From assembly GCF_019355055.1 (NCBI RefSeq), contig NZ_CP048411.1, forward strand, positions 1,488,001-1,552,000: a stretch of DNA of 64,000 nucleotides, in the 5' to 3' direction. Position numbers and translations under genes: made by a program. The notes beneath the pieces were generated by a model. The model was not told where the DNA came from and did not search any database. It was given only the letters and a program-made list of their open reading frames with translations. This document shows, one piece after another, positions 14,117 to 62,860 of the stretch (positions within the stretch are counted from its first letter, which is position 1; each line of letters opens with the position of its first letter). This DNA comes from Pseudomonas sp. MTM4. Its GTDB lineage: Bacteria; Pseudomonadota; Gammaproteobacteria; Pseudomonadales; Pseudomonadaceae.

Positions 14117-14129
14117 TCCGGCTCTGCGG

Positions 14130-46367: not shown

Positions 46368-48380
46368 CTACTCAGCCGGCCCCGCTCTTCGCTGCTGATA
46401 AATCAAATCGACGATTTCCCCTTCAGGCACATAACCGCTCACCACCTCACGCAGCAGTACCCGAACCTGCGGATAGTCATCCTGCTCGACAGCTTTAAGC
46501 AGTTTCGCCAGAGCGCCGCGCAATGCATCCCAAGTGAAGTATTCCTCATCGGCACGCATGATCATCGGATGCTCGGTGGGGCTCACGTTGTCGCCGATCA
46601 GCAGCTCTTCATAAAGCTTCTCACCCGGGCGCAGCCCAGTGAACTCGATGGCGATATCGCCATGCGGAGATTTCTCCGAGCGCACGCTCAGACCGGACAG
46701 GTGAATGAGCTTCTCCGCCAGCTCGGCAATACGCACCGGTTGCCCCATGTCCAGGACAAACACATCACCGCCCTGCCCCATGGAGCCCGCCTGGATCACC
46801 AGCTGGGCGGCCTCGGGAATGGTCATGAAGTAGCGAGTGATTTTCGGATGGGTCACGGTTACCGGCCCGCCACTGCGTATCTGCTGATAGAAACGTGGAA
46901 TCACCGATCCCGACGAGCCCAGCACATTGCCGAAACGCACCATGGTGAAACGGGTCTTGTTGACGTGATGCACCGCATCGTCAGCGCCGAACAGCACCGG
47001 TGCCGCTTCACGGCTCAACGCCTGCAGAATCATCTCCGCGACACGCTTGGTACTCCCCATCACATTGGTGGGCCGCACCGCCTTGTCGGTGGAGATCAGC
47101 ACGAAGTTGGCAACACCCGCCTGCACCGCCGCCTGGGCGGTGTTCATGGTGCCAAGCACATTATTTAGCACGCCCTCTGCGACGTTGTGCTCCACCATGG
47201 GTACATGCTTGTACGCCGCTGCGTGGTAGATCGTCTCGACCTGCCAGGTGCGCATCACATCCAGTAGACGCTCGGGATTACGGATGGAACCCATGATCGG
47301 CACCAACCGAACCGGCAGCGAAGCCCGCTTGATCACCCGCTCCAGTTCGATGTGAATGCTGTAAAGATTGAACTCGCTGTGCTCGAACAGCAGTAGCGTT
47401 CGAGGCTTGTTCGACAGGATCTGTCGGCACAGCTCGGAACCAATCGAGCCGCCCGCTCCCGTCACCATCACTACCTTGCTGCGGATGCACTTCTCGAACA
47501 GCGCCTGCTGCGGTGGCACGGCGTCACGCCCGAGCAAGTCAGCAATGTCGACTTCCTGAATATCCTCGACCTTGACCTTGCCGCTGGCCAGATCCATAAA
47601 ACCGGGAACGCTGCGTACATGGAGGGGGAAATGCTCCAATGTCTCCAGTACCTCACGCCGCCTGCCACGCGATGCAGACGGGATCGCCAACAGAATTTCA
47701 TCCGCTCCCGTCTCGTCGATCATCTGCTGGATATGCTTGGGCGAATACACCCGCAATCCGGCGATGGTGCGGTTGAAGAGATTTGGATCATCATCGATGA
47801 ACGCAACCGGACGCATCGCGCGCCCCAGCCGCAATGCTGCAATCAACTGATTGCCCGCCGCACCAGCGCCATAAACAGCGACTTTCGGCAACCCCGCGTC
47901 GCGGCCCTTGAACTTAGTAAGCGAATCCGGGGAAAACCAATCACCCATAAAGTATTGGCGCATCACCAGGCGCAAGCCGCCGATCAGCACCAGGCTCAAC
48001 CACCAGTAATTGAACACCATGGAGCGCGGAATGACCTTGGGCACATCCGTACGCCAATACACAGCCAGGGAAAGCAGCAACGCCGAGAGCGTAACCGCCT
48101 TGACGATTGCCATCAGCGCGTCGTTGCCGAAGTAGCGCATCACAGCGCGATACATGCCGAAGCGGATGAAGAACGGAATCGCAATCAGCGGTGCAATTCC
48201 GAACAGCCAGGCGTGCCCACCAAACGGATCAATATTGTGCGTATCACCCAATCGCACCACAAAGGCCAGCCAGAGCGCAGCCCAGACCAAGACTACATCC
48301 GCAGAGACCTGGATCAGCCGCTTATAACGACGCGGCAAAGTCACCAACCGAGCTCGTAGTTTTTCAGCGAGTCTTAACAC
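46368..48380 (-). CDS. wbpM: WbpM/PglF-type UDP-GlcNAc C6-dehydratase
   Basis: The product is about 670 residues. The N-terminal third has four transmembrane helices (SADVVLVWAALWLAFVVRLG, AWLFGIAPLIAIPFFIRFG and others). A Rossmann domain follows (VAVYGAGAAGNQLIAAL), then the catalytic SDR with NAD motif VVMVTGAGGSIGSELCRQ and active-site region STDKAVRPTNVMGSTKRVAEM. It makes the UDP-4-keto-6-deoxy-HexNAc intermediate. WbpM closes pseudomonad O-antigen loci. The start is uncertain: GTG 48380 gives MLRLAEKLRARLVTLPRRYK, close to P. aeruginosa WbpM, and a TTG at 48410 is also in frame. The C-terminus converges on REP repeats. Confidence 0.93.
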   Translation of the reverse strand: MLRLAEKLRARLVTLPRRYKRLIQVSADVVLVWAALWLAFVVRLGDTHNIDPFGGHAWLFGIAPLIAIPFFIRFGMYRAVMRYFGNDALMAIVKAVTLSALLLSLAVYWRTDVPKVIPRSMVFNYWWLSLVLIGGLRLVMRQYFMGDWFSPDSLTKFKGRDAGLPKVAVYGAGAAGNQLIAALRLGRAMRPVAFIDDDPNLFNRTIAGLRVYSPKHIQQMIDETGADEILLAIPSASRGRRREVLETLEHFPLHVRSVPGFMDLASGKVKVEDIQEVDIADLLGRDAVPPQQALFEKCIRSKVVMVTGAGGSIGSELCRQILSNKPRTLLLFEHSEFNLYSIHIELERVIKRASLPVRLVPIMGSIRNPERLLDVMRTWQVETIYHAAAYKHVPMVEHNVAEGVLNNVLGTMNTAQAAVQAGVANFVLISTDKAVRPTNVMGSTKRVAEMILQALSREAAPVLFGADDAVHHVNKTRFTMVRFGNVLGSSGSVIPRFYQQIRSGGPVTVTHPKITRYFMTIPEAAQLVIQAGSMGQGGDVFVLDMGQPVRIAELAEKLIHLSGLSVRSEKSPHGDIAIEFTGLRPGEKLYEELLIGDNVSPTEHPMIMRADEEYFTWDALRGALAKLLKAVEQDDYPQVRVLLREVVSGYVPEGEIVDLIYQQRRAGPAE

Positions 48381-48406
48381 ACTAACCTCACGTTCTGGCT
48401 GACCGG

Positions 48407-49591
48407 TCAAACGACCTTAGTTGTGGCGGCAGCCATGACTTGCATAAGCACCGAGCAGGTCTTTTCTATTTCGGCTGTTGTTAGCGTCGGATGCACTAAG
48501 AACATTAGACTGGTCTCGCCCAATTCGCGGGCAATCGGAAGACGCTCCGCAGGTCGCCATCCTGTCCCGTCAAAAGCTTTTTCCAAATAGACCTCGGAGC
48601 AGGAGCCCGAAAAGCAAGGAACGCCTTTCGCCGATATCTCTCCAAGAATACGGTCCCTGCTCCAACCTTCAGCAAGCTGAGCAGGCTCTACGAACACATA
48701 GCATTTGTACCCTGCGTGAAGAATTTCTTGCGGTACTTCCGGTACGCGCAGCCCCTGCAGCGTCTTGGCAACCGACCATATGCGCTCGCAATTAGCTAAA
48801 CGACTCGCATGCCAATTAGCCATCTGCCGCAGCTGTATACGACCAATAACACCTTGGACCTCCATCATTCGCCAGTTGGTGCCGAAGCTCTCATGAAGCC
48901 AGCGAAAACCGGGCGCATGCTCACGCTCATAGACTGCATCCCAACTCTTGCCATGGTCTTTGATGGCCCACATACGCTTCCACAGGGAGCGATCATTCGT
49001 GGTGACCATGCCCCCCTCGCCTCCAGTGGTCATGATCTTGTCCTGACAGAAGGACCACGCACCGACATGTCCGATGGAACCCACCGGTCGGCCCTTGTAA
49101 CGTGCTCCGTGAGCCTGGGCACAATCCTCGATGACTTTAAGATGGTGCTCAGCCGCCAATTCCATAATCGGATCCATATCGCACGGCCAACCAGCCAGAT
49201 GCACGCAAATGACTACACGTGTACGGGGCGTCAGCACGGCGCGGATCGTTTCTGCAGTGATATTTTGCGAGTCCCGATCCACCTCAGCGAACACAGGGAT
49301 TGCGCCCGCATTGACGATGCTGGAAACCGAAGCGAGAAAAGTGCGCGGCGTAACGATAACCTCATCACCAGCACCGATACCTAAGGTCAGCAATGCCAGG
49401 TCCAGCGCTACCGTACCGTTAGTTACCGCAACGGCATGCTCAGTACCTGCCCAGGCCGCAAACTCTTTTTCAAATTCGCGACATTCTTGGCCAGTCCAGT
49501 AGTTCACCTTGTTGGAGAGAATAACATCTCGTACAGCATTGGCTTCTTCTTCACTGAAGCTCGGCCAGGGAGAAAACGGGGTATTGAGCAT
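48407..49591 (-). CDS. DegT/DnrJ/EryC1 family sugar aminotransferase (PglE/QhbD-like)
   Basis: The 394-residue PLP enzyme has HAVAVTNGTVALDLALLTLG, then VIEDCAQAHGARYKGRPVGS, and the PLP lysine in WSFCQDKIMTTGGEGGMVTT. The family transfers an amino group to UDP-4-keto-6-deoxy-HexNAc at C4. It stands directly between the acetyltransferase (8 bases away) and the dehydratase, the order expected for UDP-QuiNAc4NAc synthesis. PglE, QhbD and WeeJ are the closest known functional analogues by pathway; the sugar assignment is inference. Confidence 0.9.
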   Translation of the reverse strand: MLNTPFSPWPSFSEEEANAVRDVILSNKVNYWTGQECREFEKEFAAWAGTEHAVAVTNGTVALDLALLTLGIGAGDEVIVTPRTFLASVSSIVNAGAIPVFAEVDRDSQNITAETIRAVLTPRTRVVICVHLAGWPCDMDPIMELAAEHHLKVIEDCAQAHGARYKGRPVGSIGHVGAWSFCQDKIMTTGGEGGMVTTNDRSLWKRMWAIKDHGKSWDAVYEREHAPGFRWLHESFGTNWRMMEVQGVIGRIQLRQMANWHASRLANCERIWSVAKTLQGLRVPEVPQEILHAGYKCYVFVEPAQLAEGWSRDRILGEISAKGVPCFSGSCSEVYLEKAFDGTGWRPAERLPIARELGETSLMFLVHPTLTTAEIEKTCSVLMQVMAAATTKVV

Positions 49592-49599
49592 AAAACGGG

Positions 49600-50220
49600 T
49601 TACCTCATCCTTTTGGCCGGAACACCAGCCACAGTCACATCATCCGGAACATCACTTACGACCGCCGAACCCGCACCCACCATCACGCGCTGGCCGATAC
49701 GAATCAGCTGCCGCACACTAGCGCCAATGCCAACCCAGCTTTGACTACCAACCTGTACGCCACCCGCGAGTCTGGCACCTGGACTGACATGCACGGCCTC
49801 ACCGAGTACACAATCGTGGTCGATGCTGCAGCCAGTATTAAGGATACTGCCTAGAGCTACGGAAACATCAGCGTTAACTACCGCCCCCGCAAATATCACA
49901 GTTCCTTCGCTAATAGTCGCGTATCGGCTGACGGTAGCAGCGGGATGAACCAGCGTTGCCAGACGAGCACCCGCCGCACGCAGCTCAAGCAGCTTGGCGT
50001 GACGGATACGGTTATTGCCAATAGCCACCACAATACCTTCAAATTCGGCCAACCGCTTCATGAGCGCCGTCATATCGCCCACAACCGGCCAAATTCGATT
50101 ATTTTGAAGTTTAGGCCATGCGTCATCAAAAAACTCGATTGTATGCCAACCGCAACATTCAGCAGTATCCGCCACTACCTTTCCGTGACCACTGGCACCG
50201 AGAATGGCTAGGCTATTCAC
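49600..50220 (-). CDS. Sugar acetyltransferase, left-handed beta-helix type (PglD/NeuD-like)
   Basis: The 206-residue product has a PglD N-terminal domain (SLAILGASGHGKVVADTAEC). Hexapeptide repeats follow (SRYATISEGTVIFAGAVVNA, LGSILNTGCSIDHDCVLGEA, VGSQSWVGIGASVRQ), ending VTVAGVPAKRMR. It should acetylate the C4 amino group of the bacillosamine precursor. The GTG at 50220 has AGGGA 6 bases upstream and is preferred over the longer frame. It overlaps the sugar transferase gene by 8 bases. Confidence 0.9.
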   Translation of the reverse strand: MNSLAILGASGHGKVVADTAECCGWHTIEFFDDAWPKLQNNRIWPVVGDMTALMKRLAEFEGIVVAIGNNRIRHAKLLELRAAGARLATLVHPAATVSRYATISEGTVIFAGAVVNADVSVALGSILNTGCSIDHDCVLGEAVHVSPGARLAGGVQVGSQSWVGIGASVRQLIRIGQRVMVGAGSAVVSDVPDDVTVAGVPAKRMR

Positions 50221-50815
50221 ACTTATTCCCTGTAAATTTTGGCATTGTGGCATCTCTGTCAGCATTTATTCCTTCGCGCGCCACAACCTTCTTTAGAGTG
50301 ATAAACATAATCCTCAAATCTAAAAATATGGAGCGATTATCCACGTACCAAATATCAAGCTCAAACTTTTCATCCCAACTCAGTGAGTTACGCCCGTTGA
50401 TCTGCGCCCACCCGGTAATACCTGGCCTAACTTCATGACGCCGGCGTTGTCGCTCGTTGTAAAGAGGTAGATACTCAGGCAATAAAGGTCGAGGTCCTAC
50501 CAAACTCATGTCTCCCCTGAGGACATTCCACAATTCAGGAAGCTCGTCTAAACTACAAGAGCGCAAGAGATGTCCTAACGGAGTTAACCTATCGCGATCT
50601 GGAAGCAACTCCCCTTTTGCGTCAACCAATTCATTCATCGTACGGAATTTTACCATTCTAAATAGCCTGCCATTCATCCCAGGCCTTAACTGAGTAAAAA
50701 ACACAGACCCAAACGCCAACCGAGCAACCAAAGATATGACCAATAACAATGGAAAAAGGATAACTAGGCATACAGCCGAAACTACGATATCCATTAGCCG
50801 CGACCACATATTCAT
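50213..50815 (-). CDS. PglC-type phosphoglycosyl transferase (monotopic initiating sugar transferase)
   Basis: The 200-residue small form has one N-terminal hydrophobic helix (MDIVVSAVCLVILFPLLLVI) and the catalytic domain: FRMVKFRTMNELVDAKGE, RSCSLDELPELWNVLRGDMS and LVGPRPLLPEYLPLYN, then PGITGWAQINGRN. The Asp-Glu pair in CSLDELPE is the expected nucleophile site. It would move a sugar phosphate onto undecaprenyl phosphate to start the O-unit. Its position beside the QuiNAc4NAc genes suggests that is the sugar. It overlaps the glycosyltransferase gene by 4 bases. Confidence 0.92.
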   Translation of the reverse strand: MNMWSRLMDIVVSAVCLVILFPLLLVISLVARLAFGSVFFTQLRPGMNGRLFRMVKFRTMNELVDAKGELLPDRDRLTPLGHLLRSCSLDELPELWNVLRGDMSLVGPRPLLPEYLPLYNERQRRRHEVRPGITGWAQINGRNSLSWDEKFELDIWYVDNRSIFLDLRIMFITLKKVVAREGINADRDATMPKFTGNKCE

Positions 50816-51957
50816 CCCTTCCTATTCAGAATATCTTGATAGAACCCATACACAGCGCGACCGGTTTCTCGTATATCTAGGATATTTTGAGTAAACACAC
50901 GACCAGCGTGAGCGCGCTTGATAGCCTCGTCAGGGTTACATAATATTTCTAAAATAGCGTTTGAAAGCATTGCAGGATCTCTTGGCGAAACCATCCAGCC
51001 CGTCTCGCCAGGAATAATAATATCTGGAAAACCACCAACACTAGTGGTGAGGGTTGGAACTCCCATCAGTAACGACTCAGCTGCGCCACCAAGATTCTCA
51101 GAGTGAGACGGGTGCACTACAAGATCAAAATCAGGATACAGTGAAGCGACATCACTTCTTGAACCTAAGAAAATCGCTTTGTCTTTCAGAATCTTTTTTC
51201 CGTACTTTTTCACTGCGCCGTAGTACTTTTCAGCCCCAACCCAAGCCCCCCCAACAAAAACGCAAACTACGTCGCTACGATGCTGAAGAACGAGCGACAT
51301 AGCATCTATCAAATCCTCATGTCCTTTTATTCCTCTGCTTTGGCCAAGCCATTTTTTTGGTCCGTATGCATAAGCAACCATCCCAACAATCTTAACTCCA
51401 TCAGGAACGCCCAATTCTCTCCTTAATACACCTTTGGCACTAGGTGAAAAGAGACCCGTATCGGTACCATAATATGTTAAAAACAGCTTACTAGCAGAAA
51501 CCTTCGCATCAATATAATATTTTCTGGTTCTATTGCATGTCGCAATCCAATAGTCGTGGTCATTAGATAAAGCAATCTCGACAGCGCGCGTTAAACAACT
51601 TTCCAGGTGCAAAGGTCCAGGGACCTGAAAACAACGCGCCACACTCATTCGAAACAAAGCAATACGCATAAACAACGTCGTGCCTACGAAGTGCGAGTGA
51701 ATGACGTCCGGCCTGATTTCTTTAACTAATCGACGAAAAGCATAAATAGAGCGAAACAACGAAAGTGGGTTTTTCAGCGAAGTTACATCACTAACAAGTA
51801 TAACGACGTTAGCGCCTGCGGCCCGGTAAGCGCTCGCTGTACCTGTATCATTAGGTAAGGCAACCCACACTTCGCAACCCAAATCGATGAGAACTTTTAT
51901 CTGCCGTAGAGCCCAGATAGCGCCTGACGTCGTTTTGACGAGGTGCAAGACTTTCAT
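50812..51957 (-). CDS. Glycosyltransferase family 4 protein (O-antigen, first)
   Basis: The 381-residue GT-B enzyme starts MKVLHLVKTTSGAIWALRQI. The C-terminal donor-binding region is LVVHPSHSENLGGAAESLLM, followed by GVPTLTTSVGGFPDIIIPGE (GT4 E-x7-E region). It adds a sugar to the growing lipid-linked O-unit in the cytosol. The donor is unknown. Codons are AT-rich compared with the flanking genes. It overlaps the other glycosyltransferase stop by one base. Confidence 0.9.
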   Translation of the reverse strand: MKVLHLVKTTSGAIWALRQIKVLIDLGCEVWVALPNDTGTASAYRAAGANVVILVSDVTSLKNPLSLFRSIYAFRRLVKEIRPDVIHSHFVGTTLFMRIALFRMSVARCFQVPGPLHLESCLTRAVEIALSNDHDYWIATCNRTRKYYIDAKVSASKLFLTYYGTDTGLFSPSAKGVLRRELGVPDGVKIVGMVAYAYGPKKWLGQSRGIKGHEDLIDAMSLVLQHRSDVVCVFVGGAWVGAEKYYGAVKKYGKKILKDKAIFLGSRSDVASLYPDFDLVVHPSHSENLGGAAESLLMGVPTLTTSVGGFPDIIIPGETGWMVSPRDPAMLSNAILEILCNPDEAIKRAHAGRVFTQNILDIRETGRAVYGFYQDILNRKG

Positions 51958-53147
51958 TATTTCTCTCCAGCCCGTGCCGCAAGATATTCATAAAATTCTA
52001 TTCGCCGCCCTCGTAGAACACTCGACTCATAACTATGCGCCATGCGAATGTTATCTTCAGACATGGCCTTTCTCTGTGCGTAATCATCTATTAGATTGCA
52101 AATTAGATTAGCCAGCGAGACGTAATCCTCACGTTCAACCAGAAAGTTTGACGCGAGCAATTCAGGTATGCCACCTACATTAGTTCCAACAGAAGGAAGA
52201 CCGCGTGCCATAGCTTCTATTAAAACCCGCGGCAGCCCTTCTGTCCTTGACGGGATAACAAACATGTCAGCCAAGTCCATTTCACGCAAAACCTGTTCCC
52301 GAGAAACTTTTCCCAAAAAAACAATATTTTTTGAAACCTCCAGCGAACGTGCAAGATATTCCAATTCGCTTTTAAAAGCCCCATCTCCAGCTAAAATGAG
52401 GTTGGCACGATGCCCAGAAGAAGCTATGCGTTCCATAGCTTTAATCATGATATCAAACCCTTTATATCGCTGCTCCATAGTACCAGCCATAAAAAGTCTG
52501 AACGCCTGCTCCTCACTCTTCCTTTTTATTAATCGGTCAGACACTATAATTTCACTAGGAAGATCAATGCTCGAATAAAATGTCGCATAAGCCCTAGATG
52601 AAGCAGGATAGCGCCGCTGCATTGTATGCTTAGTTACGTATGCCACAGCCTTTGCATGCTTGCAAGCAAGACGAGTGGCGGTCGTAAATACATACTCATA
52701 ACATTTAGAAAACCTACCACCTACACCACCTACTGAAAAAACACTTTGAGGATCTCCAACCAGCTCAACGCCAAATACCTTTCGACTTACAAGAAGAAAA
52801 GGAAGCGCGATGCTACTTAAGATTCCCGGTAGCCTCAAAATATGTACACCACGGATCCGAGTTGTCATCCATACGGCAAATAGCACCTTATGAATTTTTA
52901 TTAACAACTGTCGACCGCCCTTATAATAGGGCAGCTCGATAAATTTTAAGCGTGTATCCGCTATCATCCAATCAAGATTTTGGGGCATTAAATTTCTATC
53001 TGGCTCGGCACGAGCGACAATATAAACAAAGTCGTAAACCTCCAAATACCGGCGCCAAAAAAAACCACCAAATATATTCGAGTAATACACACCAGCGCTA
53101 GATCGCTGAAATCGCTCCTCTAAGTACACAACCAGAACTTTAGACAT
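51957..53147 (-). CDS. Glycosyltransferase family 4 protein (O-antigen, second)
   Basis: The 396-residue GT-B protein starts MSKVLVVYLEERFQRSSAGV and has the GT4 motif DMFVIPSRTEGLPRVLIEAM, followed by GLPSVGTNVGGIPELL. It is AT-rich. The ATG overlaps the wzy stop by 8 bases and the next gene by 1. Together with the other enzyme and the PGT it supports at least a trisaccharide unit. Confidence 0.9.
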   Translation of the reverse strand: MSKVLVVYLEERFQRSSAGVYYSNIFGGFFWRRYLEVYDFVYIVARAEPDRNLMPQNLDWMIADTRLKFIELPYYKGGRQLLIKIHKVLFAVWMTTRIRGVHILRLPGILSSIALPFLLVSRKVFGVELVGDPQSVFSVGGVGGRFSKCYEYVFTTATRLACKHAKAVAYVTKHTMQRRYPASSRAYATFYSSIDLPSEIIVSDRLIKRKSEEQAFRLFMAGTMEQRYKGFDIMIKAMERIASSGHRANLILAGDGAFKSELEYLARSLEVSKNIVFLGKVSREQVLREMDLADMFVIPSRTEGLPRVLIEAMARGLPSVGTNVGGIPELLASNFLVEREDYVSLANLICNLIDDYAQRKAMSEDNIRMAHSYESSVLRGRRIEFYEYLAARAGEK

Positions 53148-54360
53148 TGGTTGCTTTCACCTCACCCTTTCGCGACGTCAACCTTACCCTACCGCCGCTT
53201 GAAATTACCGACGCGAAAATATAGAAAAACAAACAATATGCCAGCGATTTCAAAACAACGAGCGACTCGCCGCGTATTGCATATATACCAAAGAAAAGAA
53301 AGTGATAGTACAACAAATATCCAAGATGACTTCGCCTTACAGCAAAGTGCTCTATCCATGCATAATAGTAGCCATACAATAAGAAAACAACCAGGACGCC
53401 CATAATTCCAAAGTTCAAATAAGCTTCTGCCTCCAGAGAGAAGCCGTAAGCGCCGGCCCCGTTAGAAACATAATTAGAGAACCACACCGAGCGAGACTCA
53501 GTTATTTTAACGAAACCAGCCGTCAGTAAATTCAAAATTGCAGACACATAAGACCCACCCCAAATCAACTCGCCGCCCTCTTCGAAATACTGCAAAACAT
53601 TTGTCATAACCATGAGATTACTCCCTTGATTAAGTAGCGAAGACACAAACCCTTGATTAAAAACATCGGAGCGCCCGCCCGACATCAATACAAATAAAAA
53701 AACGAAACAAACAAAAAGTATTAATGGGTATCGCAAGCCGGTAAATACATCACGAATCAACCAAAAATATATTGGAAGAGCTAGAAGCAGAAAGTCCCGT
53801 TCTCCCATTAGGAGAGAGTAGAAGCAGTACAAAACCAAGCAAATGGTGAAAACAAGGTAATTACGTCTGACTTCGACGGTGAGCGCCATATAAGCTATAA
53901 GCGCGGCAGGGACCAGCGTTGCTACTGCATAATGATATATTCCTACAGCTAGTATTTTCTCCGTTTTATTCATACCAGACTGCACAATACCGATGTAATA
54001 CAGCCAAACAAGTGCAAACACTACAAGCACTATCCCAAAAACAGGCAATACCAGAAAAATATTTTTCTTTCCTCCAGCGGCCGAATAAAAATCAGGGACC
54101 CGTTCAGACCGTGTGGGAAGCCAACTTCCCAGCATCATCGCAAAAACGGCAACAGACAATACCAGCAATGCTTTATGCAAATAATCGAACCGAATCCCTA
54201 TATATACATGGTAACCAAGAAGTTGCGCGGCAAAAGGGCCTGCAAAAAAATATATATATAAAAGAAGGTAAATATCGATACCTGATAGTTTTTTGCGCCA
54301 TGAAAATCTGCCGGCGAGTAAAATTACAAATACCACAAAGAAAACGCTAAAAATTGTCAT
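53140..54360 (-). CDS. wzy: O-antigen polymerase Wzy
   Basis: The 406-residue integral membrane protein has about ten hydrophobic segments (IFSVFFVVFVILLAG, IDIYLLLYIYFFAGPFAAQL, LVIILAL-type repeats) and a hydrophilic loop around the middle. There is no recognisable domain beyond that, as is usual for Wzy. It is placed beside wzx and the glycosyltransferases. I chose the ATG at 54360, which overlaps the wzx stop by 4 bases (ATGA); the longer frame adds a cysteine-rich, non-Wzy N-terminus. The base composition is strongly AT-rich. Confidence 0.82.
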   Translation of the reverse strand: MTIFSVFFVVFVILLAGRFSWRKKLSGIDIYLLLYIYFFAGPFAAQLLGYHVYIGIRFDYLHKALLVLSVAVFAMMLGSWLPTRSERVPDFYSAAGGKKNIFLVLPVFGIVLVVFALVWLYYIGIVQSGMNKTEKILAVGIYHYAVATLVPAALIAYMALTVEVRRNYLVFTICLVLYCFYSLLMGERDFLLLALPIYFWLIRDVFTGLRYPLILFVCFVFLFVLMSGGRSDVFNQGFVSSLLNQGSNLMVMTNVLQYFEEGGELIWGGSYVSAILNLLTAGFVKITESRSVWFSNYVSNGAGAYGFSLEAEAYLNFGIMGVLVVFLLYGYYYAWIEHFAVRRSHLGYLLYYHFLFFGIYAIRGESLVVLKSLAYCLFFYIFASVISSGGRVRLTSRKGEVKATNV

Positions 54361-55526
54361 ATAGCAACCTTGCGGCGCCTGATACAAAGAAAGAAATAGC
54401 TTGCATGAGCAGCCTGAACTAACAAGCACATCCATATAGCACCTAACGCTCTGCTTAATGAATATCCAAGCAAGCCGAACACCAACGCGCCAGCTACAAA
54501 AGCAATCGACGATTTAAGCATCTGGCTATATTGGCGAGAAGCCATTACTCCAGATGCTAAAACGGAATTTGCGATAGCGACGAAACCTGACGCAGCGGTG
54601 AACATAAAAACCTCCTTTGCCACGTCACTGGATTCAATCTTATAAAGGGATAGGTAATATGATCCACCGCTTGTACCAAGCAACAAGATGCAGACGACTC
54701 CCCAAATCACAGAAAAGAAAAGCTGTACTCTTAGCATCATGCCAAAAGCATCTTTCGTGCTTCCTGACTGAAAACAGGCACTTAATGCTGTCAACCTAGT
54801 CTGCAAAATAACGTTGACTGCCACAGACAATCCAGTCACCAAAAAGGCACTAGCAGTATAAGCAGCCAAATAGGGCATTTCGTTATTTCCCCCGAGAATA
54901 TAGCGAGGCATATTACTTTCTAAAGCAACAAAAAAACCGGAAATAGATAGCGCTAGGGAACTCAGCACCTCATTACGCCCTATCCAAACACCAGTATCAT
55001 CATAAAATAAGATTGCAGTGAGGATAAAGCCAACGCACATAGGAACGATTAATATAACCAGCGATTCAAACCGCATCGCAACCAATAGGGGGCCAACTGT
55101 CGTCACAACACGGCAGCACCATAAAATACTGATAGACCGAATGCGCTTCTGGCTAATTAATTTAGCCAATGGTATATCAACAAGCAACTCAAAGGATTTA
55201 ACAGCAAAAACAAGAATTGGAATAAACCAATACTCTATATTCCAACCCACAAAAAGAAAAAATATACAACATATGGCTGTTATAGACAGCCTAGATAAAT
55301 ACAAACAACTATCTGAAAAAACCTTATTAGCTGTAAGCAGGAAGTTCCTGTTTGGCAGTGCCGACAGTGTTGCGACAGGAGTGGCTATAGCCATCCAGTA
55401 AGACACGAGCCCAATACTCGCTTCCCCTCCGACGTTACCAGCAATAAATACGATGGACCAAGGCGAAAGGAAAGCTACAACTTGGTGCAGCCCTACCAAT
55501 ATAGATAATATACCCAAGTCGCCCAC
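54357..55526 (-). CDS. wzx: O-antigen flippase Wzx (MOP superfamily)
   Basis: The 389-residue protein has many hydrophobic segments, including LVGLHQVVAFLSPWSIVFIA, YWFIPILVFAVKSFELLVDI and VWGVVCILLLGTS-type stretches. It fits a polysaccharide-biosynthesis flippase that moves lipid-linked O-units to the periplasmic face. The proposed start is a GTG at 55526 with no clear ribosome site, so it is uncertain, and the N-terminus is shorter than most Wzx proteins. It lies 93 bases after wbpP. Confidence 0.82.
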   Translation of the reverse strand: MGDLGILSILVGLHQVVAFLSPWSIVFIAGNVGGEASIGLVSYWMAIATPVATLSALPNRNFLLTANKVFSDSCLYLSRLSITAICCIFFLFVGWNIEYWFIPILVFAVKSFELLVDIPLAKLISQKRIRSISILWCCRVVTTVGPLLVAMRFESLVILIVPMCVGFILTAILFYDDTGVWIGRNEVLSSLALSISGFFVALESNMPRYILGGNNEMPYLAAYTASAFLVTGLSVAVNVILQTRLTALSACFQSGSTKDAFGMMLRVQLFFSVIWGVVCILLLGTSGGSYYLSLYKIESSDVAKEVFMFTAASGFVAIANSVLASGVMASRQYSQMLKSSIAFVAGALVFGLLGYSLSRALGAIWMCLLVQAAHASYFFLCIRRRKVAI

Positions 55527-55619
55527 CAGCGTTCAAACTTGAAAAAACTCATTAGGTCGAAAATTCCTAGCTTACGGCTAAAATTATCGACATGAGTCCG
55601 AAGACCTTTTCATGCGCTA

Positions 55620-56642
55620 CTAAATCAATTTACGAACATACCACGACATAGCTTCACGAACACCTTCAGATGCAGATATCGACGGATTATAGAAAAGTAT
55701 ATTTCTGGCCTTTGTAATATCGGCCCTTGAATGCCTTACATCTCCACCGCGAAACCCTCTGTACAGAATTTCGCTTTTAAAGAATACCCCTTGCTCATTC
55801 AAAGCTTTGCCGATAAGCACTGCGATCTCATTCAAAGTAGTTTGATCACCAACTGCGATATTATAGATATTGTCTTTTTCTGTTGAGCTTGCTGATGCGG
55901 CAAGTATGTTTGCCTGAATAACATTGTTAATATGACAAAAATCCCGGCTCGTTTCACCATCACCATTTATCCAAATTGGTTCATTTTTTAACATTGAACT
56001 AATCCATTTTGGAATAACAGCAGCATAGGCCCCGTCTGGGTCTTGGCGCTTACCGAATACGTTAAAGTAGCGCAGTCCAATCGTACTGAATCCATATGTG
56101 CGAGCAAATACGTCAGCATAAAGCTCATTGACATATTTGGTCACAGCGTAGGGCGAAAGAGGTTTCCCAATCACATCCTCAACCTTAGGAAGCCCAGGAT
56201 GATCTCCGTATGTTGAACTGCTGGCAGCATAGGTGAAGCTTTCCACCTGAGCGTCGCGAGCGGCCACCAACATATTAAGGAAGCCATCAATATTGGTGCT
56301 GTTCGTTGTTATCGGATCATTGATCGACCGTGGTACGGAGCCTAGGGCTGCTTGATGCAGAACATAGTCAACGCCTGCGCACCCTCTGCGGCAATCGTCT
56401 AGGTTCCGGATATCACCCTCATTGAATCTGAACCGCGCCCATTGCCCCGCACTCACCAAACTTTTAACTTCATCCAGATTCCGCTGGTGGCCTGTGGCGA
56501 AATTATCCAGCCCAACCACATGCTGATTTAGCCGGAGCAGCGTTTCTAACAAGTTGGAGCCGATAAAGCCTGCCACTCCGGTTATCAACCAAGTTTTAGG
56601 CTTTAGAGGCAGTTCTTGCAGTAATAATTCGTAGCGAGTCAT
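55620..56642 (-). CDS. wbpP: UDP-HexNAc 4-epimerase WbpP (TviC-like)
   Basis: The 340-residue short-chain dehydrogenase has the NAD motif [20 protein letters not shown], then [20 protein letters not shown]. The catalytic region is [19 protein letters not shown] with [20 protein letters not shown]. These match WbpP of P. aeruginosa serotype O6 and TviC. It interconverts UDP-GlcNAc and UDP-GalNAc (or their uronates). It is one of the two upstream genes of the locus, following tviB by 99 bases. Confidence 0.95.
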
Positions 56643-56741
56643 GAAGTTTCACTTGTTCTTAAAGGGAGCAGTGAAGGGAACCGTAAATTGAACATTCCCT
56701 CCTCTCGAGTTTTCCGTGACCGGGCCACCTGCTCAGGCCAT

Positions 56742-58031
56742 TTATAAGCGCAGGTCGGACTCTTCAGCGCTCAGCAAATACTTTAGATCATATAGTACGT
56801 GTTCAGCCTTGCCGTACCGACGTATATTGTCAGCGCCCAAATCACGGAATTCGTTATGCGCTACAGCGAGCACGACACCATCGTACGCGTCGATTGCCGG
56901 TTCGGTTATTGGCGTGATTCCGTATTCATGCTGGGCTTCCGTGCCACTGACCCAAGGGTCATATACGTCAACCGCAATGTTGTATTCACCCAATTCGCTG
57001 ATGATGTCCACTACCCGCGTGTTACGTAGGTCTGGACAATTTTCTTTGAACGCAAGCCCTAGTACGAGCACTCGTGCGCCGTCGACGTGGATTCGACGTT
57101 TCAGCATAGCTTTGACCAGCTGCGACACAACGTATGCGCCCATGCCATCGTTAAGGCGGCGACCAGCAAGAATAATTTCGGGATGGTAACCGATACTTTG
57201 GGCTTTATGAGTCAAATAGTACGGGTCTACCCCGATGCAGTGACCGCCGACCAGGCCTGGGCGAAAAGGCAGGAAGTTCCATTTGGTTCCTGCAGCTTGG
57301 AGTACTGCCTCGGTATCGATACCCATCCTGTTAAAGATAATTGCAAGCTCATTGATCAAGGCGATATTTAGATCGCGCTGGGTATTCTCAATGACCTTAG
57401 CGGCCTCAGCGACCTTGATGCTAGTAGCCTTGTGGGTCCCGGCTGTAATGATCTGGTTGTAAAGTTTATCAACCAAATCGGCGACTTCGGGAGTAGAACC
57501 TGAGGTAACCTTCTTGATGGTGGTGACCCGGTGCTCTTTGTCGCCTGGGTTGATGCGCTCTGGACTGTATCCGGCAAAGAAGTCAACGTTGAACTGCAGG
57601 CCAGACACTTTTTCCAAGACCGGTACGCAGTCTTCCTCGGTAGCTCCCGGATATACCGTGGATTCGTAGATGACAATATCGCCCTTCTTCAACACCTTAC
57701 CGATACTCTGGGAAGCTTTAATCAGCGGTGTGAGATCTGGCTGCTTATGCTCGTCTATAGGCGTCGGCACAGTAACGACAAATACGTTGCAATCTCTAAG
57801 GTCGTCGAGTTTCGCTGTGTAGGTGAGATGTTCAGCTTGCTTAAGTTCGTCATCGCTAACTTCGAGAGTAGCATCGTGACCTCCTTGTAAAGCTTCAATG
57901 CGCGGGTTGTTGATATCGAAACCCACCACGGCACGCTGCTTCCCAAATTCCACAGCTAGCGGCAGGCCGACGTAGCCCAAGCCGATAATGGCGAGTTTTA
58001 TCTCTTGCAAGCTGACCATCATTACATCCAT
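56742..58031 (-). CDS. tviB: UDP-N-acetylhexosamine 6-dehydrogenase (TviB/WbpO)
   Basis: The 429-residue dehydrogenase of the UDP-glucose/GDP-mannose dehydrogenase family has the NAD motif [20 protein letters not shown] and the catalytic cysteine in [20 protein letters not shown]. Other hallmarks are [16 protein letters not shown] and a C-terminal NAD-linked domain. It oxidises a UDP-HexNAc to the uronic acid. With wbpP, the product is probably UDP-GalNAcA, as in P. aeruginosa O6 and Vi antigen. The exact start among [10 protein letters not shown] is uncertain. Confidence 0.95.
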
Positions 58032-58105: not shown

Positions 58106-59596
58106 TCAGGTAACGACGTGCACTGTTTCACCTTTGTATGCGTATTGTTTACTCAACTGGGCAGACAACACCCCCTTCGCCCCAACCTCCCCATGTACCG
58201 CTCGTATCTCACTCGGCCACTGCTGCATTCCGGTCACAAACTCCACCAACCCTTTCTGATCCGCATGCGCAGAGTAGCCGCCGATACTTGTGATGCCAGC
58301 ACAGATATCGATGCGTTCGCCATCCAGGTCTACGTAGCCGCCTTTAGGTCCGTAGGTTTGGATGACATGTCCCGGCGTGCCCTTGGCTTGGTAGCCAACG
58401 AATAGGACGTTGTGCCTTTTATCGCCCAGCATGGCTTTGAGGTAATTGACGATACGGCCACCGCTACACATGCCACCGCCAGCGATGACGATCGCCGGGC
58501 GTGCGGTCTGGGCCAGATGCTGGACGATGCGTTGGTGGTCGCTGTGGCTGTCGATGGTAATCAGTTGCTCGAAGGCCAGCGGGCGGCGGCCGGACTGGAT
58601 ACGGTCGCGGGCCTCCTGGTTCCAAAAGGGTTTTAGGCTTCGGTAGGTCTCGGTGAAGCGGCTCGCGAGTGGCGAATCGAGGATGACGGGGAGTTCGGGC
58701 CAGTTTGTTTCGGTGTTGGACTTGGCGTCGGTGTTGTTCGCCGGCCCCCTCACCCCAGCCCTCTCCCCAGGGGGGAGAGGGGGTTGTGCGGTGTTGGGGC
58801 GGGCCTTGTTGATGATCTCTTCAAGCTCGTAGAGCAGCTCTTGGGTTCGGCCGATGCTGAATGCGGGAATGAGGACAGTGCCTTGGTCTTCGAGGGCTTG
58901 TTCGATGACGGCTTCGAGCCGCTTTCGGCGGTTGGCGCGGTCTTCGTGGAGGCGGTCGCCGTAGGTGCTTTCCAGCACCAGGATGTCGGCGCGCTCCGGT
59001 GATTCGGGCGGCATCAGGAAAGGTGCGTGCGGCGCGCCGAGGTCGCCGGAAAAGACTACGCGCTTGCTCTCCCCTGTTTGCGAGTAAGTCAGATCGATTT
59101 CGACATAGGCCGACCCGAGGATATGTCCAGCACGCTGCAACCGTATGCGCGCCAGCAATTCGTCGCTATCGGCCAGGGTGAACCATTGCTGATACGGCAG
59201 CGCGATGATCCGCTGCTCGACGAGGCGGATATATTTCTCGATCTGGACCTGATCACGGCTGAAGCCAAGCTTGAAGGCATCTTCCAGCACGATCGGCAGA
59301 AGCTTCGCGGAAGGCTCGCTGCACAGGATGGGACCATCGAAGCCTGCCGCGAGCAGGTAAGGAATGCGCCCGACGTGATCGATATGTACGTGGGTGGCGA
59401 CCAGCGCTTTGATGGTATCCAGCGGGAATTCGATGGAGAGGCGATCCGCGCCGGGCTCATCAGGGATCGATGCGTCGTTGCCTTGGAACAGCCCGCAGTC
59501 GATCAGCAAGCTGGTGGTGGCGTTCATGCGCAGTTGGTGGCAGGAGCCGGTAACGCCGTCCTTGGCGCCGTGATGTTCTATTTGTGGATAGCTCAT
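58106..59596 (-). CDS. Beta-CASP metallo-beta-lactamase-fold ribonuclease-like protein
   Basis: The 496-residue product has the MBL metal motifs ATHVHIDHVGRIPYLL, RAGHILGSAYVEI and FSGDLGAPHAPFL. Beta-CASP features follow: LESTYGDRLHEDRANRRK, then LIPAFSIGRTQELLYELEEI, SHSDHQRIVQHLAQ and GGYSAHADQKGLVEFV. It resembles the bacterial YSH1/CPSF-like RNA-specificity MBL proteins that cut RNA. A stretch within a loop reads LPPGERAGVRG and comes from an inserted palindrome (58751-58790). I chose the ATG at 59596 with AAAGGAATAACC upstream. It sits between wzz and tviB, an unusual place. Confidence 0.93.
   Translation of the reverse strand: MSYPQIEHHGAKDGVTGSCHQLRMNATTSLLIDCGLFQGNDASIPDEPGADRLSIEFPLDTIKALVATHVHIDHVGRIPYLLAAGFDGPILCSEPSAKLLPIVLEDAFKLGFSRDQVQIEKYIRLVEQRIIALPYQQWFTLADSDELLARIRLQRAGHILGSAYVEIDLTYSQTGESKRVVFSGDLGAPHAPFLMPPESPERADILVLESTYGDRLHEDRANRRKRLEAVIEQALEDQGTVLIPAFSIGRTQELLYELEEIINKARPNTAQPPLPPGERAGVRGPANNTDAKSNTETNWPELPVILDSPLASRFTETYRSLKPFWNQEARDRIQSGRRPLAFEQLITIDSHSDHQRIVQHLAQTARPAIVIAGGGMCSGGRIVNYLKAMLGDKRHNVLFVGYQAKGTPGHVIQTYGPKGGYVDLDGERIDICAGITSIGGYSAHADQKGLVEFVTGMQQWPSEIRAVHGEVGAKGVLSAQLSKQYAYKGETVHVVT
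58742..58790. repeat. Palindromic repeat inserted within the metallo-hydrolase gene
   Basis: CCCTCTCCCC (58759-58768) pairs with GGGGAGAGGG (58772-58781) over a three-base loop. The flanking sequence CCCTCACCCCAGCC is typical of an intergenic element known from many proteobacteria. On the minus strand it is translated in frame as LPPGERAGVRG without breaking the reading frame. Confidence 0.75.
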
Positions 59597-59726
59597 GGTT
59601 ATTCCTTTAACGATGTCACCCAATGCGCGCGACAAACTAGTCACGTGCCCGCTGAAAAAATAAAGCGGGATTCTAAACGAGTTTCGGAGCTGCCGAGTTA
59701 TCAGCAGCAATCCGACGGATGGATGG

Positions 59727-61007
59727 TCAGATCGTAACGACCGGACGACGCAGGTTTCGCACCAGTGCGATGAACAAACCGAGCATGCCGCCAAGCACCA
59801 AGGCGAGCGCGACGATCAGCGCCTTCCTAGGTTTGATGGGCCGGCTCGGCTCTACCGCAGCCTGGTCGATGGAGACCAACTTGAGCGATTCGGTATCGAA
59901 CTGCAGGGCACGCAAGCGTGCGGCCTCCTCGCGCCAAGTGGCGAGGTCTTTGAGGAATAAGTCTTCGTTTTCGCGACTGTTGAGCACTTCGATCTGGCGG
60001 TTGTGCTGGAGCAGTTTGAGCTCGCGGGCGATCTGGGCAATGCGCGGCTCGGTGAAGTCATCGGAGCGGCGCGCGAGCAACGCTTTACGCTCGGCCTCGA
60101 GCGCATTGCTGCCCATGAAGTAGAGCGGAATTTGCTGATTGTTGACTTCAGTACGGATCACGCTGCCTTGGCCCGTGATTTCGGCGGCGCCAAGGGATGA
60201 AGGCGTAGTGGGTTTGCTGATACCCAACGAGGTTGCGATGCGGATCGCCTCGTTAAGTTGATTGATGCGGTTGTCACGGCGGGTTTTCAGTTGCTGGCGC
60301 AGCGCTGCCAATTCATCGTTCAATTCGGCGCGCTTGAGGGCGTCCGCCTCGCTCAGCTTGGCGATCTTGATTTCTTTACTCGCCTCGTAGTTGGCACGAG
60401 CGGCAGCCATGTTCTTTTCCAATTGGCTGAGTCGATTGCCGATGAGGGTGTCGAGATCGGCTGCGACCTGCTGACGTACATTATTAAGTGAGTACTGCAC
60501 GAAGCCGTTGACGATCTGGACGCCGTTGAGGTCCTGCGGGTAGGTCAGCTGGATGCCAATGAAGGGAGTGGTGCTTTCGGCCTTTTTAGCATCAGGCTGC
60601 AGCAGCTCGAATGCGTCATCATTAAAGGACTCGAAGGTTTGTTCCAGGCTGCGGCCGGGCTGGGCCAAATCAGCGAAGAGCTGCTGATTGTCGCGGAAGA
60701 AACCGAGGCGGTTTTCGTAAGAATCGAGCGCAGCGCCAACTTCGGCCAATGCCTGCTTCGGTGACAGCTTGTAGATACCCAGGTGATTGAGTTCGTCCAG
60801 ATCCTTGATCGCTGCTGGTCGCAATACGCTTTGGACTGTGTAGTAGCGCGTTGTAAGCATGGCGTAAGCAAGCCCAATGAGGCCAGCCAGGATGGTCACT
60901 GCGATGATCAGCGTTTTTTGCTTCCATAGCGCGCTGACGAGCTGGACCAGATCAATTTCATCATGGGTAGCAGAATGAAGGTGTTGCGGGGGGACTACAG
61001 CGTTCAC
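59727..61007 (-). CDS. wzz: Wzz O-antigen chain-length determinant (copy 1)
   Basis: The 426-residue polysaccharide co-polymerase has an N-terminal transmembrane helix after DEIDLVQLVSALWKQKTLII. A long periplasmic, coiled-coil-rich domain follows (RLSQLEKNMAAARANYEASK). The C-terminal helix after the proline-rich EPSRPIKPRK is ALIVALALVLGGMLGLFI. Wzz proteins set O-chain length by controlling Wzy. A GTG at 61007 starts the frame. It is the downstream of two tandem wzz genes and clearly a paralogue of the other. Confidence 0.94.
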   Translation of the reverse strand: MNAVVPPQHLHSATHDEIDLVQLVSALWKQKTLIIAVTILAGLIGLAYAMLTTRYYTVQSVLRPAAIKDLDELNHLGIYKLSPKQALAEVGAALDSYENRLGFFRDNQQLFADLAQPGRSLEQTFESFNDDAFELLQPDAKKAESTTPFIGIQLTYPQDLNGVQIVNGFVQYSLNNVRQQVAADLDTLIGNRLSQLEKNMAAARANYEASKEIKIAKLSEADALKRAELNDELAALRQQLKTRRDNRINQLNEAIRIATSLGISKPTTPSSLGAAEITGQGSVIRTEVNNQQIPLYFMGSNALEAERKALLARRSDDFTEPRIAQIARELKLLQHNRQIEVLNSRENEDLFLKDLATWREEAARLRALQFDTESLKLVSIDQAAVEPSRPIKPRKALIVALALVLGGMLGLFIALVRNLRRPVVTI

Positions 61008-61492: not shown

Positions 61493-61582
61493 TTAGAACT
61501 GAGCAGTAGCGGGCGATGGAATGTCCGCGCGATGCGGGCAATGCAGAGTAAATAGGCTGCTGGAGCGTCAACAGCCTATTGA

Positions 61583-62860
61583 TCAGCGAAGAGCGGTGTT
61601 TGGTTCGTTGTTACGTGCTACTAGGCTGCGTACCAGCGCGACGAACACACCCAGCATCCCACCGAACACGATGCCTAACGCCAGGATCATGGTCTTTTTA
61701 GGTTTGATTGGGTTGAGAGATTGCAGAGCTGGCTGATCCAATCGGACCAGCCTCAACCTTTCCGTGTCTAGCTTGATGCCTTTCAGGCGGGCGGCTTCTT
61801 CACGCAGCTCGGCGAGGTTGGTTAGATAAAGATCTTCGCCATCACGCTCCTTCAGGATTTCTACTTCCCGATTGTGCTTGAGCATGGCCAGCTCCGACTG
61901 AATTTCAGCGATGCGGGGTTCTATGAAGTCGTCGGAAGTCCGAGCTGCAAGCGCATCGCGCTCGGCAGTTAGTGCTTCGGTACCCATGAAGTAAAGCGGC
62001 GCTTTCTGATTGGTAACCTCGGTGCGAATGACCTGAGTACCGCTAGGAGGTGATGCCGTCATAGCTGATGGGCTTGTTGGGGTACGAATCCCAAGTGATT
62101 CAGCAATTGTGATCGCCTCGTTAAGCTCCTGAATACGGTTCATTCGACGGGTCTTGAGCTCGACACGTAACGCTGTGAGTTCATCCTGTAATTCGGCGCG
62201 CTTCAAGGCGTCCTCTTCCAGCAGCGCTGCGATCTTCGCCTCTTTAGTAGCCGAATAACTTGCGCGCTGAGCCTCCATGTTCATATCCAGGCTGGCCAAG
62301 CGGTTTTTGATCAGGCTTTCAAGGTCTTCCGCGATTTCGCGACGCTCAAGCTCAAGTACATGCGCGACGAAGCCATTGACCACCGCAGCGCCATCCATTC
62401 CTTTAGGGTAGGTCAGCCTAAGCCCGACGAAGGCGCTTCGGTTGTCCGTGCGCTTGGGATCAGGAAAGAGCATTTCGAAGGCGTTTTCGTTGAAATCGGC
62501 AAATGCCTGCTCAAGCGAGTCGCCACGCTTCTCAATCTGCTGGAAAAGCTCTTGGTTATTCAGAAAGAAGTCGAGCCGGTTGTCATAGGATGAAAGCGCA
62601 CCGGCTACTCTGTTGATGGCCTCTTCCGGGGTGAGCTTGTAGATGCCGGTCTCGTTGAGTTGATCCAGGCTGCTCTGAGGGACGGGGCGTAGATAAGTTC
62701 TTGTCTGGTAGTAAGGAGTCGCAAGGAAAGCGTAAGCGGCTGCGATAAGCGTAACGACCGCCGCTATTCCGAGAATCAGAAGCTTCTGACGCCAAAGCGC
62801 CCGAAACAGCTCGACTAGGTCTATCTCTTCAGCTGTGGAGGTTTGGTACTGCACGGTCAT
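61583..62860 (-). CDS. wzz: Wzz O-antigen chain-length determinant (copy 2)
   Basis: The 425-residue paralogue of the neighbouring Wzz has the same architecture. EEIDLVELFRALWRQKLLIL leads into the first helix, a periplasmic coiled-coil domain follows, and SLNPIKPKKTMILALGIVFG forms the C-terminal helix. Motifs are nearly identical in both copies, e.g. TSDDFIEPRIAEIQ versus RSDDFTEPRIAQIA. The ATG at 62860 has AAGGAG six bases upstream. It follows ihfB in the usual pseudomonad order. Confidence 0.95.
   Translation of the reverse strand: MTVQYQTSTAEEIDLVELFRALWRQKLLILGIAAVVTLIAAAYAFLATPYYQTRTYLRPVPQSSLDQLNETGIYKLTPEEAINRVAGALSSYDNRLDFFLNNQELFQQIEKRGDSLEQAFADFNENAFEMLFPDPKRTDNRSAFVGLRLTYPKGMDGAAVVNGFVAHVLELERREIAEDLESLIKNRLASLDMNMEAQRASYSATKEAKIAALLEEDALKRAELQDELTALRVELKTRRMNRIQELNEAITIAESLGIRTPTSPSAMTASPPSGTQVIRTEVTNQKAPLYFMGTEALTAERDALAARTSDDFIEPRIAEIQSELAMLKHNREVEILKERDGEDLYLTNLAELREEAARLKGIKLDTERLRLVRLDQPALQSLNPIKPKKTMILALGIVFGGMLGVFVALVRSLVARNNEPNTALR

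Follow-up and report, generated by a model that had tools for sequence, protein, structure and literature searches.

Repeat units that combine QuiNAc4NAc, a rare sugar, with GalNAcA-type residues have been described in capsules of Acinetobacter baumannii and in the O-antigen of Francisella novicida. The A. baumannii K1 unit is ->4)-alpha-GlcNAc6OAc-(1->4)-alpha-GalNAcA-(1->3)-beta-QuiNAc4NR-(1->, and the K17 trisaccharide has two GalNAcA residues (PMC10715181); ItrA1 occurs in both and is linked to QuiNAc4NAc (PMC10320297). The K1 genes include gna, gne2, qhbA, qhbB, gdr and two glycosyltransferases, and the first sugar of this capsule was called unknown in 2013 (PMC3628348). The F. novicida O-antigen has QuiNAc4NAc at its reducing end, and its three GalNAcAN residues are amidated (PMC9763628). 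Dehydratase, 4-aminotransferase, N-acetyltransferase and phosphoglycosyl transferase (PGT) chemistry like that predicted here is found in the Campylobacter Pgl system (PglF/E/D/C) and in Psychrobacter (Pcryo_0638/0637). The O6 antigen of Pseudomonas aeruginosa, which starts with WbpL, has wbpO and wbpP homologues and a WbpM-type dehydratase in common with the present locus. Its UDP-QuiNAc is made via WbpV (PMC3628348), whereas an aminotransferase, an acetyltransferase and a PglC-type PGT are found here instead.

The locus lies within the window (the whole 64,000-nucleotide stretch of DNA analyzed) and comprises ten open reading frames (ORFs), all on the minus strand and running from 58031 to 46368, so that the gene content, order and single strand given in the original prediction were recovered in full. 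Two Wzz genes lie beyond those limits.

56742..58031, minus strand: WbpO/TviB UDP-HexNAc 6-dehydrogenase, predicted UDP-HexNAcA maker (NF011729; GGHC motif at 262)
55620..56642, minus strand: WbpP UDP-GlcNAc(A) 4-epimerase (1sb8 WbpP, WbgU; YAVTK at 165)
54357..55526, minus strand: Wzx flippase, divergent MOP family (hhalign to MOP flippases; model matching WzxE)
53140..54435, minus strand: Wzy O-antigen polymerase (PF14296, TIGR04370)
51957..53147, minus strand: GT1, GT4-type glycosyltransferase, predicted third-sugar transferase (PF00534/PF13692)
50812..51957, minus strand: GT2, GT4-type, predicted GalNAcA transferase onto QuiNAc4NAc-PP-Und (PF00534/PF13692)
50213..50815, minus strand: PglC-type small monotopic PGT, initiating (8g1n, PF02397)
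49600..50265, minus strand: PglD/NeuD-family N-acetyltransferase (TIGR03570; 45% to 4m98; DHDC motif)
48407..49591, minus strand: DegT/DnrJ/EryC1 4-aminotransferase (260/390 identical to Pcryo_0638, 7l7x)
46368..48410, minus strand: WbpM/PglF-type UDP-GlcNAc 4,6-dehydratase, long form (PF02719; WlaL chains)
59727..61007, minus strand: Wzz chain-length determinant, copy 2 (PF02706, 48.4 bits)
61583..62860, minus strand: Wzz chain-length determinant, copy 1 (PF02706, 60.5 bits)

All ten genes can be assigned to families from their sequences, Wzx (without a Pfam match) through profile comparison and a model of moderate confidence. From the gene order, families and conserved residues, which are direct observations, we infer every reaction, every linkage and the final structure. 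The locus probably makes an acidic O-antigen by the Wzx/Wzy route, with a unit that likely starts with QuiNAc4NAc and likely contains GalNAcA. In this pathway, the WbpM/PglF enzyme would convert UDP-GlcNAc to a 4-keto-6-deoxy sugar, from which the aminotransferase would form UDP-QuiNAc4N and the PglD-type enzyme, by acetylation, UDP-QuiNAc4NAc; the PglC-type transferase would place QuiNAc4NAc onto undecaprenyl phosphate. WbpO and WbpP would provide UDP-GalNAcA, GT2 would add GalNAcA in alpha linkage, probably at O-3 of QuiNAc4NAc on the model of A. baumannii K1 and K17, and GT1 would attach another sugar, also in alpha linkage, after which Wzx would flip the unit, Wzy would polymerize it and the two Wzz would set chain length. 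We predict alpha-GalNAcA-(1->3)-QuiNAc4NAc plus one more sugar, and the repeat unit probably has three sugars. The matches of the aminotransferase, acetyltransferase, PGT and WbpO/WbpP are in line with the unit originally proposed, initiated by QuiNAc4NAc and containing a HexNAcA, and both of the further glycosyltransferases it called for proved to be GT4-type (PF00534/PF13692).

The likeness to K1 and K17, a trisaccharide with alpha-GalNAcA-(1->3) on QuiNAc4N(R), was judged from structure and gene names, which for K17 means ItrA1. The locus differs from both as a predicted pseudomonad O-antigen locus with Wzz, in having ten genes without wza-wzb-wzc or an O-acetyltransferase, and in a Wzx found only in Stutzerimonas and one further contig. 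It differs from F. novicida in lacking an amidotransferase, from Campylobacter Pgl in an aminotransferase of Pcryo_0638 type, and from Psychrobacter in its acetyltransferase, which scores only about 44 bits against the Pcryo_0637 chains (7l7y/7l7z) and 157 against 4m98. The hint of uniqueness in the original prediction does not hold, since K1 and K17 are published examples of the plan (PMC10715181) and F. novicida is one of a related plan (PMC9763628). Its nomenclature is also revised: the A. baumannii PGT for QuiNAc4NAc is ItrA1, not ItrB, with ItrB1 and ItrB3 going with FucNAc/QuiNAc (PMC10320297), and the genes for QuiNAc4NAc are qhbAB/gdr rather than QhbC/QhbD, with qhbCB/gdr corresponding to the 3-hydroxybutanoyl form (PMC9676051).

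WbpO and WbpP are both present and adjacent, which points to a supply of UDP-GalNAcA as judged by homology. WbpO/TviB scores 693.6 bits against NF011729 (cut-off 592), and WbpP scores 562 bits against PDB chain 1sb8 ('wbpP'), 528 against WbgU and 514.6 against the NCBIfam TviC model, under its cut-off of 760. WbpP also interconverts UDP-GlcNAc and UDP-GalNAc (PMC3628348), so that GalNAc might replace GalNAcA at one residue.

Sequence is no safe guide to the glycosyltransferase substrates, and the support for GT2 comes from three loci. Among 299 genomes from a single other family, taken as Moraxellaceae, three have a relative of GT2 (54-57% identity), and in all three loci this relative stands directly before a PGT-acyltransferase-aminotransferase-dehydratase series, the acyltransferase being of another type (25-31% identical). 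WbpO and WbpP are complete in two of these loci, and the contig of the third ends within a WbpP-like gene (49%, 81 aa). No GT2 relative was found in L131 or L132, two loci of the same genus with the same sugar genes. The recurrence of GT2 beside the QuiNAc4NAc module in another family makes it a possible marker of the GalNAcA-QuiNAc4NAc linkage for serotype prediction from genomes. The same neighborhoods bear on a different order of addition, in which the first sugar is unchanged, QuiNAc4NAc receives a neutral sugar (GlcNAc or GalNAc) from GT2, and the GalNAcA comes from GT1. We give this order perhaps one chance in a few: Bacillus subtilis EpsD, also of the GT4 type, transfers GlcNAc onto Und-PP-diNAcBac (PMC10653937), and a GT1 relative (53%) stands beside GT2 and also beside WbpO/WbpP in L129, a more distant one (32%) occurring in L128; however, L130 keeps GT2 beside WbpO/WbpP with no close GT1 relative found, and in K1 and K17 GalNAcA is directly on QuiNAc4N(R) (PMC10715181).

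Somewhat less likely, though still to be reckoned with, is a unit that goes beyond a plain trisaccharide, with a branch or modification added by a glycosyltransferase, O-acetylase or amidotransferase whose gene lies outside the locus. Asn_synthase-family matches number five elsewhere in the genome, alongside other polysaccharide genes, and none in the locus, and make amidation of the uronic acid possible; on the other side, no gene for such additions is among the ten, and two glycosyltransferases plus one PGT correspond to three sugars.

For the first sugar, the reading as QuiNAc4NAc has been strengthened by the homology and residue evidence: a dehydratase, a 4-aminotransferase and a PglD/PglB-type N-4 acetyltransferase are all recognizable by homology, and the aminotransferase also by its residues. 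The dehydratase scores 412 bits against PF02719 and has the WlaL proteins as its best PDB chains (278 bits). As listed, the acetyltransferase ORF shares 53 nt with that of the PGT, and its homology begins only at residue 18-19, so that the true start is probably internal. It scores 221 bits against TIGR03570, above the cut-off, and is best matched by 4m98 (157 bits, 45% identity, DHDC motif), with 136 bits to perosamine acetyltransferase and 99 to UDP-N-acetylbacillosamine acetyltransferase. The 4m98 entry, titled 'Pilin glycosylation protein', is presumably the PglB domain of Neisseria, which has demonstrated acetyltransferase activity for QuiNAc4NAc, and this nearest relationship argues against an N-4 acyl group that is 3-hydroxybutanoyl, as in many Acinetobacter capsules, instead of acetyl. 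We regard that substitution as improbable, even though qhbCB/gdr pairs with QuiNAc4NHb in A. baumannii (PMC9676051), K1 bears acetyl or 3-hydroxybutyrate (PMC3628348), and two acyltransferase types partner the aminotransferase (in 52 and 14 of 80 loci).

The aminotransferase scores 300 bits against PF01041 and 599 against 7l7x (Pcryo_0638), to which it is 67% identical (260/390). The six active-site residues of Pcryo_0638 that were checked (T60, D156, S180, Q183, K185 and N239) are kept in it and in all 80 named relatives. Tyr 229 of Pcryo_0638, which contacts uracil and phosphate (PMC8040287), is Phe here and in 78 of the 80. Pcryo_0638 was assayed with UDP-4-keto-6-deoxy-GlcNAc and is 27% identical to PglE (PMC8040287). 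Grouping with perosamine enzymes, which the original prediction had named as evidence that would count against it, was not observed: perosamine synthetase reached 194.6 bits against the 599 of Pcryo_0638, and perosamine was rejected as the product.

The PGT scores 209 bits against PF02397, 226 against PglC chain 8g1n and 118 against WbaP, and carries SLDELPEL at 88. For the aminotransferase, the dehydratase and the PGT, every NCBIfam model matched scores below its cut-off. The marks described for diNAcBac-using PGTs are a 'GLLP' loop and a Phe at the C terminus (PMC10942596); aligned to C. concisus PglC, the PGT has a common GELLP loop and a KFTG C-terminal tail with an aligned Phe. The Phe-bearing tail occurs in 68 of 72 PGT matches of at least 50%, and the loop is no clean marker in this group, given that G-x-LLP is found in only 11 of 76 matches. 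The KFTG-type tail is absent from two PGT-like proteins (L135 and L136) whose loci are without a close copy of the aminotransferase. A Shigella sonnei-type cluster presumably has a gene order similar to that of the locus, which counts for FucNAc4N or another 4-amino sugar as the first sugar of an S. sonnei-like unit. Despite this and despite B. fragilis WcfS, a small PGT using UDP-FucNAc4N (PMC12550135), we consider such a sugar very improbable, in view of the N-4 acetyltransferase gene between the PGT and aminotransferase genes, the 67% identity to Pcryo_0638 and the PglC features of the PGT.

Of 80 named loci, 8 have the enzyme set, some of them from P. fluorescens, P. lini and P. hunanensis; within the genus it occurs in 3 of 56 genomes when the present one is counted. 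The structure of Pseudomonas tolaasii reportedly combines QuiNAc4NAc with a GulNAcA amide. A literature search limited to the available parts of its sources, with subscription chemistry journals mostly outside, found no pseudomonad structure with QuiNAc4NAc and HexNAcA. The locus is a fresh example of a design known from Acinetobacter capsules and is not new in kind. Tentatively, and with the odds somewhat against it, the product might be a pseudomonad version of the K1/K17 glycan, alpha-Sug-(1->4)-alpha-D-GalNAcA-(1->3)-beta-D-QuiNAc4NAc, with the GT2-PGT cassette found across the border of Moraxellaceae and Pseudomonadaceae; Stutzerimonas and Acinetobacter could then have a common surface epitope, together with phages or antisera that read it. 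From the gene list, a Stutzerimonas O-antigen gains a structural prediction that is specific and can be tested, and two reactions become assignable, those of the PGT on UDP-QuiNAc4NAc and of GT2 on UDP-GalNAcA.

Wzx matched no family in Pfam or NCBIfam searches, and a protein search gave four sequences, its own included. Its profile aligns with MOP flippases (hhalign 98.2%, E 4.2e-14). A model built from the four sequences (at least 72% identity) had a pLDDT of 42.5, and addition of three distant relatives raised it to 64.6 (pTM 0.62), with WzxE as the top PDB match (E 1.5e-4, 12% identity). Compared with the flippases of other loci, the four sequences matched the L129 protein only, and neither those of L130 and L128 nor the locus Wzy, used as a control. 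The profile and model tie Wzx to the MOP-fold flippases, as a putative flippase missed by curated families. Wzy exceeds the cut-offs of PF14296 (45.8 bits) and TIGR04370 (43.3 bits) and has two weak matches besides itself among 194 relatives. Polymerase (PF14296, once) and chain-length regulator (PF02706, twice) are thus both present, and we infer from the Wzz genes that an O-antigen is favored over a capsule. Two Poly_export (Wza-type) matches lie away from the locus, at genome positions 1207664 and 1689381, and the one ligase-family match above the cut-off is at 3597397. An MBL gene lies just beyond the 46368-58031 limits.

The ten open reading frames of the original prediction are present on the minus strand, running from 58031 to 46368 in the claimed order (WbpO, WbpP, Wzx, Wzy, glycosyltransferases GT1 and GT2, a PglC-type initiating phosphoglycosyl transferase [PGT], acetyltransferase, aminotransferase and dehydratase). 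Family scans and PDB sequence searches bear out its gene names for all but Wzx, which has no family match. WbpP, the aminotransferase, the dehydratase and the PGT match NCBIfam models only at scores under the respective cut-offs, so their names are based on Pfam and PDB matches. The genome consists of one contig of 4.69 Mb, and the closest named relatives among the matches listed belong to Stutzerimonas, which makes this genus the most likely one for the organism. Three further genes occupy the region upstream of the ten (58106-62860):

58106-59794, minus strand: metallo-beta-lactamase-fold (MBL) gene
59727-61007, minus strand: Wzz-family gene
61583-62860, minus strand: Wzz-family gene, adjoining the preceding one

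GC content is 41.7-45.6% from wbpP through the PGT gene, 50.8% in wbpO, 53.8% in the acetyltransferase gene and 54-59% in the genes for the aminotransferase, the dehydratase and the Wzz and MBL proteins, the pattern to be expected of a serotype-specific segment exchanged between strains. Both Wzz copies are retained in five same-genus loci (L134-L138), and their pairing suggests two modal chain lengths.

Regarding the enzymes for the first sugar, a PDB sequence search scored the acetyltransferase at 157 bits to 4m98, which we take to be the Neisseria PglB domain, and at 136 bits to perosamine acetyltransferase, with lower scores to UDP-N-acetylbacillosamine acetyltransferase (99 bits) and Pcryo_0637 chains (~44 bits). 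The aminotransferase aligns with Pcryo_0638 (7l7x) with 260/390 identical residues; PMC8040287 gives the PDB codes and reports the kinetics of Pcryo_0638 on UDP-4-keto-6-deoxy-GlcNAc. Among the residues named in that paper, T60, D156, S180, Q183, K185 and N239 are retained in the window enzyme and in 80/80 named relatives (the best 80 of at least 583), and Y229, which that paper places in contact with uracil and a phosphate, is replaced by Phe in the window enzyme and in 78 of the same best 80.

The PGT scores 226 bits against C. concisus PglC versus 118 bits against WbaP, and contains SLDELPEL, including the DE dyad. PMC10942596 describes diNAcBac PGTs as having a 'GLLP' loop together with a Phe at the C terminus; the GELLP loop of the window PGT is identical to that of PglC, and the C-terminal Phe is also aligned. 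Around the named aminotransferases (best 80 of at least 583 loci), exact G-x-LLP occurs in only 11 of 76 PGT matches and is thus a weak marker, and a Phe-bearing tail is found in 68 of the 72 matches with at least 50% identity. This tail is missing from two PGT-like proteins in L135 and L136, whose genomes carry no close copy of the locus aminotransferase.

The frequency of the module was assessed in one scan of named genome contigs with the aminotransferase. It yielded at least 583 loci, of which the 80 best (L007-L086) were used; neighbors were counted within up to 10 kb, with contig-end losses scored as misses. Among these best 80, a PGT (at least 50% identity) and a dehydratase each occur in 72, WbpO (at least 55%) in 12, WbpP (at least 60%) in 14 and both in 11. 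The one aminotransferase is partnered by two distinct acyltransferase types, the window type (at least 48%) in 52 and a second (24-48%) in 14; none was detected in L027, L034, L037, L042, L050, L068 and L086 despite a nearby PGT, and the N-4 group may differ there. PGT, window-type acetyltransferase and dehydratase co-occur in 47/80 of these loci, and together with WbpO and WbpP in 8/80 (L018, L023, L035, L038, L039, L056, L057 and L071), including P. fluorescens PS858, P. lini CC269 and P. hunanensis xwS6. PGT, acetyltransferase and aminotransferase form an unbroken same-strand run in 47 of 51 cases among the same best 80. Within the window's genus, a search at E 0.001 gives some match to the aminotransferase in 55/56 genomes, for the most part other aminotransferases; 11/56 have a close one (at least 82%; the match in genome G053 spans 297 residues), 8/56 a close WbpO, and 3/56 both (the window's own, G035 and G037), the same three carrying the whole enzyme set in one stretch.

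The predicted glycan type has precedents. In PMC10715181 (Table 1), A. baumannii capsules K1 and K17 are trisaccharides with alpha-GalNAcA 1->3 on beta-QuiNAc4N(R). The K1 genes listed in PMC3628348 are gna, gne2, itrA1, qhbA, qhbB, gdr and two glycosyltransferases, its first sugar being stated there as unknown in 2013; ItrA1 is tied to QuiNAc4NAc and listed for K1 and K17 in PMC10320297. The sugar-making functions match those of the window locus. In F. novicida, QuiNAc4NAc occupies the reducing end and three GalNAcAN are present (PMC9763628). The glycan predicted for the window locus is thus a further example of an already known type.

Five Asn_synthase-family matches in the genome make amidation possible; none lies within the locus, and one weak match falls inside the window near 4507-4701. 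Both GT1 and GT2 match GT4-type Pfam models, so alpha linkages are expected from the family. GT2 is rare, occurring in 2/390 genomes of the order at E 1e-60 (the window's own and G365) and in 3/299 genomes of G365's family, taken as Moraxellaceae. In the three loci of that family (L128-L130), a GT2 gene of 54-57% identity stands immediately before those for the PGT, acyltransferase, aminotransferase and dehydratase; L129 and L130 have both WbpO and WbpP in full length, and the L128 contig ends within a WbpP-like gene. On the basis of these three neighborhoods, GT2 is predicted to use QuiNAc4NAc-PP-undecaprenol as acceptor and UDP-GalNAcA as donor. Counting against this assignment, no GT2 relative was found in same-genus loci L131 and L132, although the sugar genes are there. 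PMC10653937 holds that sequence alone cannot predict glycosyltransferase specificity, and reports that EpsD uses GlcNAc. A GT1 relative adjoins GT2 in L129 (53%) and L128 (32%), and no close one was found in L130. In the protein searches (top 120 entries out of 2307 and out of 2746), nine GT1/GT2 relative pairs besides that of the window agree in the length of their longest contig; each pair therefore probably shares one contig, as was directly seen only for L129. The Moraxellaceae-type locus L130 also carries, near WbpO/WbpP and GT2, a RimK-like ATP-grasp gene (13399-14421) whose product, by analogy with K17, could add an amino acid to GalNAcA.

Wzx has no Pfam or NCBIfam match, and a protein search returned four sequences including its own, the named ones from Stutzerimonas. 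A syntenic 402-aa protein of L129 matches it by profile comparison (probability 65.6%, E 5.8e-5), and a 34% relative of that protein (L139) reaches PF01943 at 38.4 bits, over the cut-off. Since a seven-sequence Wzx alignment matches five MOP flippases (98.2%, E 4.2e-14) and WzxE ranks first among the PDB matches of the structural model (pLDDT 64.6; E 1.5e-4, TM-scores ~0.5-0.6), with MATE and MurJ entries next, the protein most likely represents a divergent Wzx. For Wzy, only two weak matches besides its own turned up among 194 relatives.

The MBL gene, of beta-CASP/RMMBL type and located between wzz and wbpO, encodes an RNA-processing-type enzyme travelling with O-antigen loci. It lies upstream of wbpO in all seven same-genus wbpO loci fetched (L131, L132 in pieces, and L134-L138), but is not adjacent in L137; relatives at 53-55% occur in 5 of the best 80 of at least 583 named loci, one of them partial. 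Inside it, at 58745-58783, is an in-frame palindromic repeat (protein PPLPPGERAGVRG), in a linker region that varies in length and sequence among aligned species. By the dehydratase end, at 45436-46172 on the plus strand, an NTase_sub_bind gene (PF08780) overlaps a small Polbeta/NTP_transf_2 nucleotidyltransferase gene; in our reading, the two form a HEPN-MNT pair.
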